A DNA stretch of 64,000 nucleotides, taken from assembly GCF_023256255.1 (NCBI RefSeq), contig NZ_JAGDXD010000043.1:1-64000 (forward strand), read 5' to 3'. Source of the stretch: Caldivirga sp. Its GTDB lineage: Archaea; Thermoproteota; Thermoprotei; Thermoproteales; Thermocladiaceae. Both the position numbers and the translations under genes were made by a program. The notes under the pieces were generated by a model. The model did no database searches and was not told the DNA's origin. It saw only the letters and a program-made list of their open reading frames with translations. Shown piece by piece: positions 34,819 to 53,291 of this stretch (its first letter is position 1; every line of letters begins with the position of its first letter).

Positions 34819-35979
34819 TTATTTACTTGGTGGATTCATGCTGATCACCTCCTTTAACCGCTTAATAACTATCTTAACCTCATCCTCCCTTAAAGTATGA
34901 GTGTTAATGCATAAGTTACCGTCGCATTCACATGCATAAATCGGTGGATTCCCCTCCTTCAGTAGCCTAATGTATAGTTTCGTGTAATTTTCCGGTAACT
35001 TAACCTCAACCTTAGGTACAGTCACCGGCCTTATCCTCTCCCCAGGATGATTCACCCTCTTCTCAATTTTAAGACTTGGGAATGCTGCCGTTAATTCACT
35101 TAATATTTCATCAGCCATCTTATTCATTAAACTTAACCTCTCCTCATGGTTAATGCTTATGTACCTCTCCAGTGCTGCAATGAAAGCCGCAATATCCTCC
35201 TTACTAATTTTCATAACCCTACCTATAAATACTCTGGTCTGGCCATTAACACTAATATAGCTGAATGGGCTCATTAACCTGCATGCATTGAGTAGTTTAA
35301 GGTTATTTGCCAGGATTAAGCCTGTATCACCAGGTGCCCCAATATCCTTACCCCCACTGAAGACTACTAGGTCAGCCCCCATTCTAATAAACCTCGTTAA
35401 GTTAATTAATGGAGGTAGTTCAGCTGCAGCATCCACTATAACCGGTATGTTAAATTCACGCGCAATCTCAATAACCTTACTTAAAGTTACTTCACCCTCC
35501 TGTGGTTCGTATTGGAAATGTAGAATTGCGGCGGTTTTATCATTTAAGGCACCCCTAATGTCACTCTCACTAACCCCCCTTGGGGAGCCAGTAATCCTTA
35601 ATTTACCGCCTGGGATATTAATGAAGTAGACATATGGGTTACCTACAGTATGCGGATACTGCACCACCACTTCATTCCTTAAACCATCGGTGAACGGTAA
35701 CCTACTCATCTTATTAATGTCGCCTTCAGTAATTGCAGCTGCAATAGCCAGTACTAAGCCGGATCCAGCACCACTTGTTATTAAGGCTCCAGGAACGTTC
35801 AGCAACCTAGCAATATAATCCCCTGACTTAACTAAGAGTTCATTCATGTCTACGAAGGAATCCGCAACCTCCTTCATTGCACCTAAAATCTCTGAATCAA
35901 CCCTATTACTACCAAGCACTGTAAGTGTGCCACAGGCATTAATAACCTTACGTACACCCAGTCTATCTAAAATACCCAT
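34819..35979 (-). CDS. SelA-like PLP-dependent enzyme
   Basis: A 386-residue fold type I PLP enzyme related to bacterial SelA and to D-glucosaminate-6-phosphate ammonia-lyase. VINACGTLTVLGSNRVDSEI at the N-terminus is shared by this group, Asp183 in PVIVDAAAELPP contacts PLP, and Lys211 in VVFSGGKDIGAPGDTG is the Schiff-base lysine. The basic N-terminal tRNA-binding domain of true SelA is missing, so selenocysteyl-tRNA synthesis is unlikely; an amino-sugar acid or other ammonia-lyase reaction is more likely. Single gene, with an MFS gene upstream on the same strand. Confidence 0.82.
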   Translation of the reverse strand: MGILDRLGVRKVINACGTLTVLGSNRVDSEILGAMKEVADSFVDMNELLVKSGDYIARLLNVPGALITSGAGSGLVLAIAAAITEGDINKMSRLPFTDGLRNEVVVQYPHTVGNPYVYFINIPGGKLRITGSPRGVSESDIRGALNDKTAAILHFQYEPQEGEVTLSKVIEIAREFNIPVIVDAAAELPPLINLTRFIRMGADLVVFSGGKDIGAPGDTGLILANNLKLLNACRLMSPFSYISVNGQTRVFIGRVMKISKEDIAAFIAALERYISINHEERLSLMNKMADEILSELTAAFPSLKIEKRVNHPGERIRPVTVPKVEVKLPENYTKLYIRLLKEGNPPIYACECDGNLCINTHTLREDEVKIVIKRLKEVISMNPPSK

Positions 35980-43729: not shown

Positions 43730-44062
43730 TCACAATCTTAAGTACAGCCAGCCATCAGCCATCTTCCTCACAATTTCCCCTACCCCAGCATTAACGGTTA
43801 CAACACCATTAATTAATTCCCCCTCATTAATGTTACTTAGCCTCATTGCATTTCTACACGCTACAATCAGAACACCCATTCTAATAAGCTCATTAATATC
43901 ATCCTCATATTCACTACCCTTAACTAATGCCTTAACGGCGGTTTGGTTAAAAACAACCTCAAGCTGTACATCACTTACATCATTAAGCAGGTTCCTACAT
44001 GATATCAACGCCGCCTTAACCTTCTCTAAGTCTGATACGTGTGCAACAACCTTATGAACCAT
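43730..44062 (-). CDS. DsrE/DsrF-like protein
   Basis: A 110-residue protein with the DsrE fold pattern: KVVAHVSDLEKVKAALISCRNLLND at the start, VQLEVVFNQTAVKALVKGS, and GVLIVACRNAMRLSNI, where the Cys (about 68) is the position used for sulfur transfer in active family members. It may carry sulfur in relay reactions, like TusE/DsrE proteins, though many archaeal relatives are uncharacterised. It is a single-gene unit, convergent with rpo7. Confidence 0.75.
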   Translation of the reverse strand: MVHKVVAHVSDLEKVKAALISCRNLLNDVSDVQLEVVFNQTAVKALVKGSEYEDDINELIRMGVLIVACRNAMRLSNINEGELINGVVTVNAGVGEIVRKMADGWLYLRL

Positions 44063-46175: not shown

Positions 46176-46197
46176 CTACATGGGGTGCTTAGCTGAA

Positions 46198-47784
46198 ATG
46201 CGCAGTGAATTAAGGTATAGTTACTATGATTTAATTGAGAGGATTGCGGAGACTTCAGCCTTAGCAGTATTAACGACGGCCATTGGGATAACCTTTAATG
46301 AAGGTATGGTTATGATAATAGTAACCACGTTAACAATGCTCCCTGTGCTTCTATTTCCCTTCGCTAAGAATTACGCAACAATAAGTGCACTATACTTGGC
46401 CTTAGCCTTAATAACCTATAGCAACATTAATTCACTAGGGTTCGTAAATGAGTTAATAGTCATGGTAGGCGTTTCAATGGCTGTTTTACTAACAATCATT
46501 CAACTACCAGTATGGTTACGTTACCTTCTACTTGGTGCTTATTATGTGCTCGTGGTCACTTCAACAGCTAACACGTACTCCTTAATATACATTATATTCA
46601 GTTTCCTACTATTAATGTATATGGCAGTGAGGGCATCCAGTGGTCCCCTTCAATCAACCTACAAGTACCCACCTTGGGTGATGTATGTTCTCTCAATATC
46701 CCCCCTAGTGCTAATTCTCCTTAGCCAAAGATTAAATGCCAACGTATCTCAAGCTGCACCAAGCATACTGGCTAGCTTTGTATTAACAATACCGCTGATT
46801 AAGTCAAGTAGGCTTAAGCGGGCTTTAGCTGTTGCATTATCATCGATTCCACTCGTCTTCATACCGCAAGCATCTTTTCTCCTAATCCCAGCATTAGCAA
46901 CGTTCAGGAGGGTGAGGTTCCATAAGGGTGTGCCACCGCCTGAAACATGGGTTGATGCATGGATTGGTGGTCGCTACTACATTGAGAAGGTTATTGATAT
47001 TGGAGGCTTCAGTTACGTATTACTGGGTCGTTACGGTAATGAGAAGTACGCTATTAAGGTTCTTAGGTACACTAGTCCTAGTAATACTCCATTGGCCAGT
47101 GACTTAAAGGTTGTTCAATCGTTTAAGAGGGAGATGACTAGCTACCTACTGGTTAACAGTGATAGGGTGGTTAAGGTATATGAAATACACATAAATGAGG
47201 ATAAACTACCCTACAGGAACCTTGAGTCCTACCTGGAGGATCCACCTTACATAGTCATGGATTACATGGAGTATGGTTCATTAAGACGTTACCTTAGGGA
47301 GAAAGGTAAGTTAGATGTAGCTGAGGCCGTTAGGATAACTTACGAGATAGCTGTTGCCTTAAAGGAACTACATAGCATGGGTATGCTTCACCTTGATCTT
47401 AAGCCGGAGAACGTTTTATTTAAGGATAAGAATAGGAGAGTTGTTAAGCTTGGTGACTTGGGGGCTTCAAGAGTTTATGCAGGGCAGAGGGTTGAAATAT
47501 CCCAATTCTCACTGGCGTATTCAGCCCCCGAGGTTCTTATGAATAAGGCAGCCACAGATAAGGCTGACGTATACTCCCTGGGTTTAATAATGTACGAGAT
47601 GCTCATGGGCTTCAACCCGCAGCAGTATACCCTAAGGGGCATTACGCCACCCATGGATCCACGTATACCTCCACCGATTGCCAGTATCATACTAAGAAGC
47701 CTAAGTGTGGATCCTCAAATGCGTCCAAGCATTGATGAGATTATTGCGGTGCTCAGCGTTTTCACGGCCCCTCCATCACCTTAA
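46198..47784 (+). CDS. Membrane Ser/Thr protein kinase
   Basis: About 528 residues from the ATG giving MRSELRYSYYDLIERI. The first 240 hold about eight hydrophobic helices, then a cytoplasmic eukaryotic-type kinase domain. Numbered from an ATG six codons upstream: glycine-poor ATP loop GGFSYVLLG (275-283), Lys293 (YAIKVL), Glu318, catalytic Asp406 and Asn411 (HLDLKPENVL), metal Asp426 (GDLGAS, DFG equivalent) and SAPEV. The set looks active. Serine- and threonine-rich targets could be the FHA proteins encoded convergently. The sensor is apparently the membrane part, since no outside domain is seen. Confidence 0.88.
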   Translation: MRSELRYSYYDLIERIAETSALAVLTTAIGITFNEGMVMIIVTTLTMLPVLLFPFAKNYATISALYLALALITYSNINSLGFVNELIVMVGVSMAVLLTIIQLPVWLRYLLLGAYYVLVVTSTANTYSLIYIIFSFLLLMYMAVRASSGPLQSTYKYPPWVMYVLSISPLVLILLSQRLNANVSQAAPSILASFVLTIPLIKSSRLKRALAVALSSIPLVFIPQASFLLIPALATFRRVRFHKGVPPPETWVDAWIGGRYYIEKVIDIGGFSYVLLGRYGNEKYAIKVLRYTSPSNTPLASDLKVVQSFKREMTSYLLVNSDRVVKVYEIHINEDKLPYRNLESYLEDPPYIVMDYMEYGSLRRYLREKGKLDVAEAVRITYEIAVALKELHSMGMLHLDLKPENVLFKDKNRRVVKLGDLGASRVYAGQRVEISQFSLAYSAPEVLMNKAATDKADVYSLGLIMYEMLMGFNPQQYTLRGITPPMDPRIPPPIASIILRSLSVDPQMRPSIDEIIAVLSVFTAPPSP

Positions 47785-47893
47785 CCAGTGGATTAGCTTA
47801 ATCAAGGGTCTTAATGATTAATGAAGCTGCGGTTAGATGCAGTGTGGGTTCAAACTAATGAGGATACGTAACTAATGCTTGACCATAGTTAAA

Positions 47894-48322
47894 TTAGCCT
47901 TGAATTAGATTTATCTTTAATATAGTGTATATTCCTAACCTTACCACTATCCCATCCCTTAATTCAACTTTATTAACGCGTTCGAAAACACCATTATTGT
48001 ACACGTATGTGCCGTTCTTACTGTTTAAGTCAACTAGTACTATTGAGCCGCTGGGATCCTTGGATATCATTGCGTGCTTCCTTGAGACTGTTATATCCGG
48101 TACAACCACTATGTTGTCTGGTGCCCTCCCTATAGTTATTGAATCGAAGTAAACCACGTCAAGGTCTACTGCAGTGTTCTTAAGTGAGTCAACCGTTGAT
48201 TCTATGAAAGTTATCCTAATTCTCTTAACAGGCTTTTGCTCCACATGCCTAGTGGTTTCTGTCCCCAGGTCCTTAACATTAAGTGTTGTATTACCCTTAT
48301 TATTCTGCATTGCGGCATTCAA
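47894..48322 (-). CDS. FHA-domain protein
   Basis: A 142-residue soluble protein with a complete forkhead-associated domain at about 60-140: SITIGRAPDNIVV, VSRKHAMISK and VDLNSKNGTYVYN carry the conserved GR, S-R-x-H and N-G-T of phosphothreonine-binding FHA domains. The N-terminal 45 residues are polar and contain Thr residues (NKGNTTLNVKD, GTETTRH) that could be phosphorylated. It lies 54 bp after the membrane FHA-like gene and converges on the kinase, whose end is 109 bp away. A phospho-signalling partner of that kinase is likely by context. Confidence 0.87.
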   Translation of the reverse strand: MNAAMQNNKGNTTLNVKDLGTETTRHVEQKPVKRIRITFIESTVDSLKNTAVDLDVVYFDSITIGRAPDNIVVVPDITVSRKHAMISKDPSGSIVLVDLNSKNGTYVYNNGVFERVNKVELRDGIVVRLGIYTILKINLIQG

Positions 48323-48376
48323 TCTAATAGGTGTTTATATGCTTTTATACGCATCCCTACGCATATTGACGGAGGC

Positions 48377-49078
48377 TTAACTTAAGCGAGTTATCCTAAC
48401 TCTAATGTTGTTAATCCAAATTACGTAAGATTCACTTGGTTCCACCACTATAGAGTCAACGCCTTTAAGCTTACCCTTATCCTCAATCATTAACCCCTTA
48501 CCCGTAACAGTAACCTTACCCTTATCGTTAGTTATTATGATGGATAGGTCCGTTACCTTAACTGGCAGAATAATATCACTGCCTTTACCGCTCCCCACTG
48601 TAACTCTATTCCTCACTAGGATTATCTTATTGAACTCGAGTTGCGGATCAATTAAACTAATCCTAATGCTTGGTATCCTTTGGCATATTGATACATCAAC
48701 TAGGATTGTCATATACATTCCGAAGCCTAACGCAATACCCATTAGTATGGATGTAGCCATGGCGTAGAATGATTGATAGGTTAATGCTGAGTATATTGAA
48801 ATATACAATAGTGCAGTGATACCGCCCACTAATCCATTAGCGCTTTTACAAGTTATGATCCTTTCCCTGACGTACACCCTAGTGAGTAGAACCATTGCTG
48901 ATGAAACCAGTAGAAGGAATAGTAGTATTGATAATGAGGTACCCACACCTATCGGCATCTTGAACATGTACCTAACTAGGATATCGTAAAGCATAACTAA
49001 AAGTATTAGAAGTGCTATGGCTGGTGCATTACGAAGTATCAATGTTTCCACTTCAGACGTTAGCTTTATCTTAACCAT
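48377..49078 (-). CDS. Membrane protein with degenerate FHA-like domain
   Basis: About 233 residues from the ATG that overlaps the nre stop by 8 nt; the longer frame from 49159 overlaps nre by 89 nt and is less likely. Five hydrophobic helices (to about residue 140) are followed by a beta-rich cytoplasmic domain that resembles FHA in spacing (NRVTVGSGKGSDIILP; VTDLSIIITNDKG; LMIEDKGKLKG) but lacks the Arg after Gly and the S-x-x-H pair. It should not bind phosphothreonine in the usual way. It is between nre and the canonical FHA gene in one operon. Confidence 0.72.
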   Translation of the reverse strand: MVKIKLTSEVETLILRNAPAIALLILLVMLYDILVRYMFKMPIGVGTSLSILLFLLLVSSAMVLLTRVYVRERIITCKSANGLVGGITALLYISIYSALTYQSFYAMATSILMGIALGFGMYMTILVDVSICQRIPSIRISLIDPQLEFNKIILVRNRVTVGSGKGSDIILPVKVTDLSIIITNDKGKVTVTGKGLMIEDKGKLKGVDSIVVEPSESYVIWINNIRVRITRLS

Positions 49079-50285
49079 AATTAACACCCATGTAATCAGT
49101 AATGCGGCTATGCCTACTAGGCATAAGTTTAATGACATCCTTACTTTTAAGTAATTCAACTAGGGCCGCGTAAACTTCATTACCTCTCCTAATTGGTCCA
49201 TTTTCAAGCGCCCTCTTAACAGTCTCCCTTATATGCCAATTACCTACAGTTACGAAGTATTCAGGTAAAACCTCCCTAAATATGATCACTTCGGCTGATC
49301 TACCAATACTATTAAGGTACTCTAAGGCAGATAACCTAGCAGCGTAAAAGCCCCCATCCATATCGCTGACTTTTCCCCTGTGATTCTCGTCAACAACATG
49401 CACCGCAGTTTCATTACTTAAGACTAAGGCTGAGGATGGGTACCACACTTCAATCCACCTAGCCCTATATGCACCAGGCCTAAGCACTATCATGAATCTG
49501 TTACCAAGGTACTCACCGTAGAAGAGTAAGTCCTCACTTAACTCAGGCATTAAAGTAACCCTGCTCCTTAACTTGTCACCTATTATTGAGTCCACTGCGG
49601 TAATAGCCCACCTAGTGGGCACTAGTTTCCTACTTCTTCTCCTACCCAACATGCCTACTGATAATGCCCTTACCAGTGGGTAAACCCCTATACCCGCTCT
49701 ATAGGCTTCCCAAACTGCATCACCGGCCTCAACATCATCGTTAATTAACATCTCAATAGGCTTAGGTACCCTGGGGTTATTGTTAATCCTTATCCTTAAA
49801 GCCCTCGCGGAGGGAGGCGTGGGTGCCAGTAATTCATTAATGCTGAATCCAGTTAACTTACCCTTGAGTAGAGCCTCCATATCCACTGGTTTCTCTGAAA
49901 CTGACGCCAATGATAATTCATTATCATAAAGCTTACTGACTTCATTAACCTTAACGGTGGTTGAGGCCGCAACCATAGATGACCTAAGCCTAATAATGTC
50001 AAATAGGCTTAATTTACCCCACCATTCACTTGGATTATCGTAACTAGAGGCTGCATCACCATGCACACCAGGCGGTATACTAACCATAACTCTCACTGAT
50101 GGGTACCCATGCTCACCGATTATTACTGATGGTGGTGAGGAGCCATCGACATTGCCGTTAATATACCTTTCAATTCGACTTAGCGTAATCTTTCTCTCCA
50201 ACAGTGGGCACTTGGGTAATCCACATAGGTTCCTGTATCCCTTACACGCTAAGCATAGCTCTGGCCTTATCCTAATTCCGGTCAC
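49071..50285 (-). CDS. nreA: Nre-family DNA repair protein
   Basis: A 404-residue archaeal Nre protein. An N-terminal zinc site is CLACKGYRNLCGLPKCP. PSVIIGEHGYPSVRVMVS, SYDNPSEWWGKLSLFDIIRLRSSMV, and RSRKLVPTRWAITAVDS are family blocks. In Haloferax, Nre proteins act in repair of mitomycin-type damage and bind PCNA through a C-terminal QxxLxxFF motif; the C-terminus here (SRHSRITDYMGVNYG) has no clear such motif. It is the first gene of the operon with the FHA proteins. A role with PCNA is family knowledge, not shown here. Confidence 0.85.
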   Translation of the reverse strand: MTGIRIRPELCLACKGYRNLCGLPKCPLLERKITLSRIERYINGNVDGSSPPSVIIGEHGYPSVRVMVSIPPGVHGDAASSYDNPSEWWGKLSLFDIIRLRSSMVAASTTVKVNEVSKLYDNELSLASVSEKPVDMEALLKGKLTGFSINELLAPTPPSARALRIRINNNPRVPKPIEMLINDDVEAGDAVWEAYRAGIGVYPLVRALSVGMLGRRRSRKLVPTRWAITAVDSIIGDKLRSRVTLMPELSEDLLFYGEYLGNRFMIVLRPGAYRARWIEVWYPSSALVLSNETAVHVVDENHRGKVSDMDGGFYAARLSALEYLNSIGRSAEVIIFREVLPEYFVTVGNWHIRETVKRALENGPIRRGNEVYAALVELLKSKDVIKLMPSRHSRITDYMGVNYG

Positions 50286-51220: not shown

Positions 51221-51451
51221 CTAAGAGTTCCTAATTGCTACGATTATGTAAGCGTTATCATGCTCAACATTACTTTCAATGGACTCACCCAGTATTTTCA
51301 AGAATCTTAGAAGCATCATGTAGCACACGTAGTCATCAGTCTTTATTACGAACCTTGATCCAATAGGCACTTTAACTAATTCTCTTGCTACTATATTCAA
51401 TGGCGTGGGGCAACTCATACCACTAACGTTTATCTCATACTGCGTATTCAT
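51221..51451 (-). CDS. tusA: TusA-family sulfur carrier
   Basis: A 76-residue SirA/TusA fold protein: INVSGMSCPTPLNIVARELVKV, with the CPxP motif (Cys at about 14) that carries persulfide sulfur, and GSRFVIKTDDYVC. In other prokaryotes TusA feeds sulfur to tRNA thiolation, molybdenum cofactor or energy metabolism. It is divergent from a SelD-like/acylphosphatase fusion gene (88 bp between), which hints at shared regulation. Confidence 0.88.
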   Translation of the reverse strand: MNTQYEINVSGMSCPTPLNIVARELVKVPIGSRFVIKTDDYVCYMMLLRFLKILGESIESNVEHDNAYIIVAIRNS

Positions 51452-51539
51452 AGTAGGGGTTTAAGTTGATTTCTTTTTAGATGTGAAATAATTAGGCATA
51501 AAATGCAGCATAATCATTACTTTAAATTCAATTCAAGTA

Positions 51540-53291
51540 GTGGTGATGCTAATGAAAGTAAGCAAGGAGGAGAGGATTAGCAGGTTCCTGAACCACGTTG
51601 GCAAATATGCCTCAATAGGGGTTAACTTAGCGTCACTTGCATTAGGGTGTTCTGTTAAGGTTGACCTTTATAATGTACTGTATCCAGCGTTATCTATTGT
51701 TAAAAGGGAATTAGGTGAATTAAACATTAAGATAGCCCCACGTGAGGATGTGGCCGTTCTCAAGGGAAGTGAACTGGAGGTAATGAGAATTATAACTAGT
51801 GTTGATTCACCGAAGTTACCAATCAATAGCATTAATGATTTTAACCCAGATTCATTAATACTGCTTGTTGAGGCGTTTCAAGGCAATGCCAGTGACCCAG
51901 ACTCATTCGCCAACGTTATGATAAAGTTGTTCAGGGAGTTAGCTAAGATAAATAGAGAAATAGTGATAGGTAAGGGACACAGCATAGTGAGTACGCAACC
52001 TAATGCAAGCGTTCATGTACTGGACTTCATTAAGACGAAGATTAAGGATGATGCATATACATTAGTTAATAATGATACAATACAAGTCATAGACCCTATG
52101 GATGAAATAGCATCCCGTAGGCAAGTCTCAGTGGCGTTAAATAACGCCCTTAATGACTTATTCTCTAAGGGTGCGTTTAAAGACCTTGAGTTTTACCCAA
52201 TCTATGATGCACCAGGTGAGTATAATCATAAGTTATTTAATGAGGTGAAGACTTATGTTAATGAGTTAGGTGGGAAACTGCATGAAGTTGAGCAGCCTAA
52301 TTTAGGCTACTTATTGATAGGCTCCACAGTGGCCAGTAGGCTTGATAGGGAACCACCCATGTTTTACAGTGAGGTTAAGGAGGGGTTTAAGATTGTTGTG
52401 ACAAGGCCATTCGGTGAATTAAGCATTATAGGGACTTACGTTGCCCTTCACGTTGACGAAGAGTTATATGATAAGTTTGAGAAGGAGATTATGAGTGTTG
52501 ATGAGCTTGAGGAGATTAAGGAATACGCGCTAAGCCAAATGGCTAAGCCGAATATTGATGTTGCCAAGGTAATATACGGGCACTTACCTGAAATTGGGCG
52601 GAAATTCAACAGTGATGCACACATAGCGGCAACAATAGACATCAGTGGACCAGGGATATTTGTGTTTAAGGAGCTTGCGGAAACCGCCAATGTGAAAATT
52701 AGGCTAAGTAACATACCGTTAATAAGCCCTGAGGTGGCTGAGTTTGCGGCATCGAACTACGTTATTGCAGACGCTACGGCAGGCACTAATGGAGCAGTTG
52801 CCCTAGTGGTCTCCAGTGAGCTAGTTGATGATGTGCTTACTGAACTAGGAAGAATACCGGGTTTAAAACCCATGGTCATAGGCGAAGTTATTGGAAGAGG
52901 TGAGGGTGCTTTAATTGTCCCAGACTATGTGTCTAAGTACATTAAGGATAAGGCAATGCTTGCTAAGCTCACCATGGCGTCCAACATTCTTCAGGGTGTT
53001 GCTAGGCGGCATCCCGCATTAAGGCTTGCAAGGGCTGAAATAGTGGTTATGGGGAAAGTTCAGGGTGTTGGCTTTAGGCCATTGGTTAGGAGGAATGCGA
53101 AATCCCTTGGATTAACTGGTATTGCTAAGAATAATGAGGATGGTTCAGTCTCCATAATTGCGGAGGGTGAGGAGGGTAATATTAGGGCTTTCGTAGAGTC
53201 ATTGAGGAACATTAATGTTGTGGAGATTAAGGAATTAAACATTAAGTGGAGTAACTATAAGGGTGAGTTCACGGACTTCACAATAGAATAA
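51540..53291 (+). CDS. SelD/PurM-like protein fused to acylphosphatase
   Basis: A 583-residue fusion. Residues 1-490 resemble the SelD/PurM (AIR synthase-like) family; the second half (SDAHIAATIDISGPGIFVFKELAET and VRLSN-IPLISPE) matches the SelD 'DVTG-G' region, but the N-terminal catalytic Cys/Sec and Gly-rich loop of selenophosphate synthetase are not evident. Residues 502-583 are a full acylphosphatase: GKVQGVGFRPLVRR with catalytic Arg513 and Asn531 in IAKNNEDGSV. The joined enzyme may make or hydrolyse an acyl phosphate or phosphoro-sulfur compound. The start may be 51552 (MKVSKEER), behind GGTGAT. Confidence 0.78.
   Translation: MVMLMKVSKEERISRFLNHVGKYASIGVNLASLALGCSVKVDLYNVLYPALSIVKRELGELNIKIAPREDVAVLKGSELEVMRIITSVDSPKLPINSINDFNPDSLILLVEAFQGNASDPDSFANVMIKLFRELAKINREIVIGKGHSIVSTQPNASVHVLDFIKTKIKDDAYTLVNNDTIQVIDPMDEIASRRQVSVALNNALNDLFSKGAFKDLEFYPIYDAPGEYNHKLFNEVKTYVNELGGKLHEVEQPNLGYLLIGSTVASRLDREPPMFYSEVKEGFKIVVTRPFGELSIIGTYVALHVDEELYDKFEKEIMSVDELEEIKEYALSQMAKPNIDVAKVIYGHLPEIGRKFNSDAHIAATIDISGPGIFVFKELAETANVKIRLSNIPLISPEVAEFAASNYVIADATAGTNGAVALVVSSELVDDVLTELGRIPGLKPMVIGEVIGRGEGALIVPDYVSKYIKDKAMLAKLTMASNILQGVARRHPALRLARAEIVVMGKVQGVGFRPLVRRNAKSLGLTGIAKNNEDGSVSIIAEGEEGNIRAFVESLRNINVVEIKELNIKWSNYKGEFTDFTIE

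Follow-up and report, generated by a model that had tools for sequence, protein, structure and literature searches.

SelD makes selenophosphate. HypF, which contains an acylphosphatase domain, and HypE, an enzyme of the AIRS fold, bring these two kinds of activity into one pathway, as is the case at the locus described here. A third comparable system is the bacterial YedE-YedF-SelD module (PMC5322559), in which a transporter, a TusA-domain protein and a SelD relative stand together, as they do in many archaeal relatives of our locus.

The closest description is that of Li et al. 2014 (BMC Genomics 15:908, PMC4210487). According to the main text of that study, which was based on 215 archaeal genomes, a SelD-like family occurs in Sulfolobales and Thermoproteales, its gene being present in all Sulfolobales and in most Thermoproteales then sequenced. 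The same text reports that the residues of SelD are conserved in the family, citing the Cys17-x-x-Lys20 catalytic loop of SelD, that an acylphosphatase-like domain is fused to the protein in all Thermoproteales carrying the gene, and that SirA-like (= TusA) and COG2210/DsrE genes lie nearby. Li et al. proposed two models involving thiophosphate and argued for sulfur rather than selenium. In the literature after 2014 we found no experimental or biochemical work on the SelD-like family; later reviews repeat the hypothesis, and a 2026 review (PMC13188914) cites the family from Li et al. 2014 alone, as speculation.

The association of a SelD-like enzyme, an acylphosphatase and TusA was thus already published in 2014 and is not new. 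What we add, as far as the main text of Li et al. 2014 shows, is the range of the family beyond the two reported orders and a four-gene operon with a transporter; we found no mention of the acylphosphatase operon or of the transporter in that main text. We also report separate adjacent acylphosphatase genes outside Thermoproteales, a single origin of the fusion, the lack of a true SelD in the carrier genomes searched, and the exclusion of molybdenum hydroxylases as a general explanation.

The fusion protein and its TusA neighbour

In the window (the whole stretch of 64,000 nucleotides of Caldivirga sp. DNA that was analysed), positions 51540..53291 of the + strand encode a protein of 583 residues; the listed start is GTG, and an ATG further downstream in the same frame is possible too. 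A sequence-only reading of this DNA had described one protein carrying a SelD-like part and an intact acylphosphatase, 88 bp from a divergent TusA gene, and both observations were borne out by profile searches and ORF coordinates. Indeed, residues 15-478 (51582..52973, + strand) match the profile NF038049, SelD_rel_HyperS, with 666 bits (E = 2e-200, cut-off 250) over model positions 2-464 of 465. NF038049 is an NCBIfam equivalog named 'SelD-related putative sulfur metabolism protein', and the protein is therefore a member of a known SelD-like family; like its relatives in other Thermoproteales, it carries a fused acylphosphatase. The earlier reading had left room for the N-terminal part being some other known enzyme with an assigned role: the part does belong to a named family, but that family has no assigned biochemical role. 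It is the family described by Li et al. 2014, with the same acylphosphatase fusion, TusA/SirA neighbour and conserved residues; judging by their main text nothing essential differs, except that the adjacent TusA of Caldivirga is divergent and of another class than the overlapping TusA of Vulcanisaeta and Pyrobaculum.

Near the N-terminus, the loop Cys37-Ser-Val-Lys40 (51648..51659, + strand) corresponds to the catalytic loop Cys17-x-x-Lys20 in SelD of E. coli. We aligned 27 relatives and observed that Cys37, Asp162 and Asp185 are invariant, while Lys40, Asn202, Asp206 and Asp367 are at least 90% conserved, the exceptions including distant copies (f49). A profile-profile comparison by hhalign aligned Asn202, Asp206 and Asp367 with Asn87, Asp91 and Asp227 of SelD, at 97.8-98.4% when six SelD sequences were used and 61% with the single sequence of E. 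coli SelD. This match begins downstream of the Cys loop, and the pairing of Cys17 and Lys20 with Cys37 and Lys40 was made from the motif, its N-terminal position, order and conservation; that of Asp51 and Asp68 of SelD with Asp162 and Asp185, outside the hhalign match, was likewise made from motif, order and conservation.

An AlphaFold2 model built with the 27 relatives reached a mean pLDDT of 89.3. Selenophosphate synthetases (SelD) account for every one of the 14 best PDB matches to this model, HypE and ThiL coming next. In a profile search of the PDB, profile A1 found SelD and the unfused profile A2 found nothing. SelD is thus the nearest known enzyme by profile and by fold, sharing the AIRS fold, the catalytic Cys-x-x-Lys loop and the Mg/ATP-binding Asp and Asn residues. 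However, the SelD-like part has an insertion of about 100 residues that separates its Cys loop from the ATP-binding core, is only about 15-20% identical to SelD, is fused to an acylphosphatase, and belongs to a host in which no selenium-utilising genes were found; its score is far below the SelD cut-offs, the fusion protein reaching 38.5 bits against the equivalog cut-off of 291 for PRK14105. More distant relatives, scoring 236-267 bits (L071 and L072, from G227 and G215; also G283), retain the Cys of the Cys-x-x-Lys loop but not its Lys and have also lost the NNDT motif, and these probably have a different function.

The C-terminal part, residues 500-582 (53037..53285, + strand), matches the acylphosphatase profile PF00708 with 79.8 bits (E = 1.9e-22, cut-off 22.5). 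Both catalytic residues, Arg513 and Asn531, are present, 18 residues apart, which is the spacing of known acylphosphatases. The modelled domain superposes on the S. solfataricus acylphosphatase (TM 0.94, 1.0 Å), to which it is about 42% identical with Arg and Asn conserved; the difference is that here the domain is fused to a SelD-like enzyme. The catalytic loops with Arg and Asn are conserved in the aligned fused and operon-adjacent acylphosphatases of relatives. The genome from which the window comes also keeps a separate, free acylphosphatase copy.

The TusA-family sulfur carrier, of 76 residues, is encoded on the - strand at 51221..51451 and separated from the SelD-like ORF by the divergent intergenic region of 88 bp (51452..51539). 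It scores 48.7 bits with PF01206 (cut-off 28.6) and keeps the CPxP cysteine in a CPTP motif (Cys14-Pro-Thr-Pro). Since the fusion and its TusA neighbour are conserved across Thermoproteales, the arrangement is not a matter of chance. Elsewhere in the window, positions 46180-49159 hold a gene cluster: one product, of 534 aa, has a protein-kinase domain and is hydrophobic in its N-terminal half, another, of 142 aa, has an FHA domain, and a third, of 260 aa, is hydrophobic and matches no Pfam family. This cluster, which ends beside an Nre DNA-repair gene, is conserved in part in Caldivirga relatives.

Distribution, gene order and origin of the fusion

The SelD-like family exceeds the NF038049 cut-off in 40 of 300 sampled genomes of the phylum, and a scan with an alignment as query, one genome per species, gave 64 loci; a single-protein query of the same kind gave no relatives. 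Fused copies were found in Caldivirga, Vulcanisaeta, Thermocladium, Pyrobaculum and Thermoproteus, all 23 fused loci belonging to Thermoproteales, in line with the trait reported in 2014. Unfused copies occur in Sulfolobales, Acidilobaceae/Caldisphaera, Pyrodictiaceae, Thermofilaceae, Ignisphaera, Geothermarchaeota, Baldrarchaeota and Nitrososphaeria, and further in two Euryarchaeota MAGs and in Bipolaricaulota/Acetothermia MAGs. The family is therefore not confined to Sulfolobales and Thermoproteales. Some Nitrososphaeria carriers are MAGs named, it seems, after ocean and groundwater samples and, judging by these sample names, the family is not confined to hyperthermophiles either, nor to those that reduce sulfur. 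One 'Marinimicrobia' record shares its neighbours with Nitrososphaeria and may be a binning error. A true SelD above the TIGR00476 cut-off was found in none of 39 carrier genomes.

Gene order was counted over 92 non-identical SelD-like loci. The acylphosphatase is fused in 23 of them and encoded by a separate gene on the same strand, immediately downstream, in 28, with gaps usually of -41 to +27 bp; two of these 28 are probably frameshifted fusions. TusA lies less than 400 bp from the SelD-like gene in 65 of the 92 loci, from many phyla, so that the co-occurrence in related genomes on which the sequence-only reading had staked its proposal does hold. In 48 loci TusA is on the same strand and within 60 bp, its start or stop codon often overlaps the SelD-like gene, and a 4-bp stop/start overlap is found in many Thermoproteales. 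The neighbouring TusA of Caldivirga and Thermocladium is divergent and falls into the class that in Vulcanisaeta lies downstream of the SelD-like gene. As for the start-overlapping class, its member in the window genome is a divergent copy elsewhere (C23), an assignment made from a short and poorly resolved alignment.

A Sulf_transp (PF04143, YedE-like) transporter is encoded within 3 kb in 23 of the 92 loci, often directly upstream of TusA, which results in the gene order YedE-TusA-SelD-like-acylphosphatase. In raw counts, related genomes included, PF04143 is present in 31 of the 40 genomes with a SelD-like gene and in 30 of the 260 others. The window genome has no PF04143 match, showing that the transporter is not essential.

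A tree built from 76 sequences places all fused proteins in a single group (SH-aLRT 99), so that the fusion arose once, at the base of Thermoproteales, next to lineages whose genes are separate. Operon-adjacent acylphosphatase genes are spread through much of the remaining tree, which suggests that the separate adjacent genes are older than the fusion, although the tree is rooted with a distant outgroup. Copies from Nitrososphaeria, Sulfolobales and bacteria are mostly without an adjacent acylphosphatase.

Several neighbourhoods contain other genes. In four Pyrodictiaceae-type loci (L109, L111, L113, L114) a gene for a DSP-type phosphatase comes directly after that of the acylphosphatase. In Nitrososphaeria and Bipolaricaulota (L121, L124, L125, L126, L129, L138, and also L134, L136, L137) the SelD-like gene adjoins an exported beta-propeller-like family (cluster 8), whose member in L121 has a TAT signal; the marine-type loci also hold a second propeller, YedE, two TusA genes and a double rhodanese. 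In Sulfolobales (L033-L038, L040), divergent rhodanese genes and genes for a glyceraldehyde-dehydrogenase-type molybdenum hydroxylase flank the SelD-like gene.

Sulfur or selenium as the substrate

The reading that we prefer, though tentatively, is a sulfur route in which TusA feeds thiophosphate formation by the SelD-like enzyme and the acylphosphatase hydrolyses a phospho-compound of the reaction. TusA would receive sulfane sulfur; in other lineages a YedE-type transporter may bring it in, or rhodanese or DsrE proteins may supply it. The carrier would then transfer this sulfur, in persulfide form, to Cys37 in the SelD-like enzyme, whose natural donor we infer to be TusA. The AIR-synthase-type active site would phosphorylate the sulfur with the gamma-phosphate of ATP, giving thiophosphate for a presumed downstream use, as SelD gives selenophosphate. 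The acylphosphatase domain would act on a labile phospho-compound, which is probably the activated product itself or a by-product of this reaction, and its hydrolysis would release the compound or stop it from accumulating. The conservation of the acylphosphatase, fused or adjacent, together with the DSP phosphatase of the four Pyrodictiaceae-type loci, argues for phosphoryl chemistry in the pathway. On the other hand, the acylphosphatase would be left without a clear role by a simple thiophosphate product, a point that Li et al. 2014 (main text) make about their second model, and the copies from Nitrososphaeria, Sulfolobales and bacteria that mostly have no acylphosphatase gene beside them also count against our main model.

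The earlier proposal of an 'activation of sulfur or selenium' agrees with the hypothesis of Li et al. 2014, as their main text gives it, and with the operon context, the chemistry itself being inferred. As to the element, no true SelD was found in the 39 carrier genomes, and the window genome, in which we found no SelU and no XDH-family molybdenum hydroxylase (PF02738, absent from three congeners too) and whose SelA-like gene is of the DgaE type, has AprA and five TusA genes; sulfur is therefore favoured over selenium, as Li et al. argued. Their main text also reports an exclusive correlation with AprA, which does not hold fully, since AprA is present in four Thermoproteales genomes without a SelD-like gene (G254, G260, G270, G189), three of them only 87-88% complete. 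Two further genes had been offered as weak support by the sequence-only reading, and neither serves. The 'SelA-like' enzyme (34819-35979, - strand) gave 213 bits, below cut-off, with TIGR01437/DgaE-type PLP ammonia-lyases and 37 bits with SelA; it was rejected as SelA and is a DgaE-type relative. The DsrE-family protein (43730-44062, - strand) is a weak match of 25.7 bits without NCBIfam match, 7 kb away and with no link to the SelD-like gene. TusA beside DsrE-like genes is a typical sulfur-trafficking arrangement, and in the window genome it is seen at three TusA genes out of five (C66, C39, C50; L073, L075, L074).

The resemblance to YedE and YedF speaks for selenium. The operon transporters score 155 and 147 bits with NF033796, selen_YedE_FdhT (cut-off 350), and 116 and 110 with TsuA, and the start-overlapping TusA is best matched by YedF PRK11018 (58.7 bits, cut-off 79), so that the transporter and its TusA are closer to the selenium-related YedE/YedF than to the thiosulfate proteins TsuA/TsuB, all scores being below cut-off. 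One may thus imagine a true selenium pathway, with YedE-type uptake, a YedF-like TusA and a divergent SelD making selenophosphate for an archaeal 'orphan SelD' trait. Such a pathway would fit the catalytic residues of SelD in the protein and the parallel with the bacterial YedE-YedF-SelD module (PMC5322559), and in L148 a bacterial selD is directly followed by yedE. We nevertheless consider it unlikely. Unlike the bacterial module, the archaeal loci have YedE and YedF scores under the curated cut-offs and an extra acylphosphatase, and the window genome is without the transporter; the low PRK14105 score, the lack of SelU in this genome, a SelA-like gene that is not SelA and the absence of molybdenum hydroxylases from it and three congeners point the same way.

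Other readings and meaning of the operon

The pairing of HypF and HypE inspires another reading, already raised as an alternative from the sequence: the acylphosphatase would free carbamate or an acid from a carbamoyl- or acyl-phosphate, and the AIRS-fold domain would re-phosphorylate it and pass it to a thiol. HypE is indeed the next fold match after SelD, and TIGR00143 hypF matches the domain weakly (36.6 bits). However, the domain is closer to the stand-alone acylphosphatases (PRK14449, 71.9 bits), and profile searches of the protein gave SelD-like and acylphosphatase domains only: unlike the HypF/HypE system, it has no YrdC/Sua5-type or carbamoyltransferase domain, nor was one recognised among the recurrent neighbour families scanned, and it has instead the conserved SelD-type N-terminal Cys-x-x-Lys loop. 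The positive evidence comes down to the presence of the acylphosphatase itself, and we regard this chemistry as quite improbable.

That the gene order is conserved without any joint sulfur function is very unlikely. Li et al. 2014 (PMC4210487, main text) also leave a joint function open, but the start/stop overlaps, the gene fusion and the repeated association of TusA, acylphosphatase and transporter across distant lineages, in different arrangements, speak against it. Lastly, a supply of the sulfido ligand to molybdenum hydroxylases, by analogy with the SelD-YqeB-YqeC selenium cofactor system, would fit the aldehyde-oxidase-type (CoxL/M/S-type) genes that adjoin the SelD-like gene in several Sulfolobales and the raw co-occurrence of PF02738 (29 of 40 SelD-like genomes, 57 of 260 others), but as a general role it is refuted by the absence of PF02738 from 11 of the 40 carriers, including the window genome, three congeners and four Acidilobales-type genomes (f20), and we give it almost no credence.

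Returning to the sulfur route, it is possible, and here we are a shade more cautious still, that a YedE-type transporter, TusA, the SelD-like enzyme and the acylphosphatase form a widespread and ancient chalcogen-activation pathway, whose free thiophosphate (or selenophosphate, although its users are not known) would serve metabolism as sulfur donor, in hyperthermophiles, marine Nitrososphaeria and Bipolaricaulota MAGs. If the sulfur route is true, a SelD relative would be producing free thiophosphate, an activated form of sulfur new to biology, and this would explain the role of a gene that has been in question since 2014. With the wider operon, a vague neighbourhood hypothesis becomes a defined system of four proteins (transporter, carrier, SelD-like enzyme, phosphatase), and this context makes the function of the SelD-like enzyme testable.
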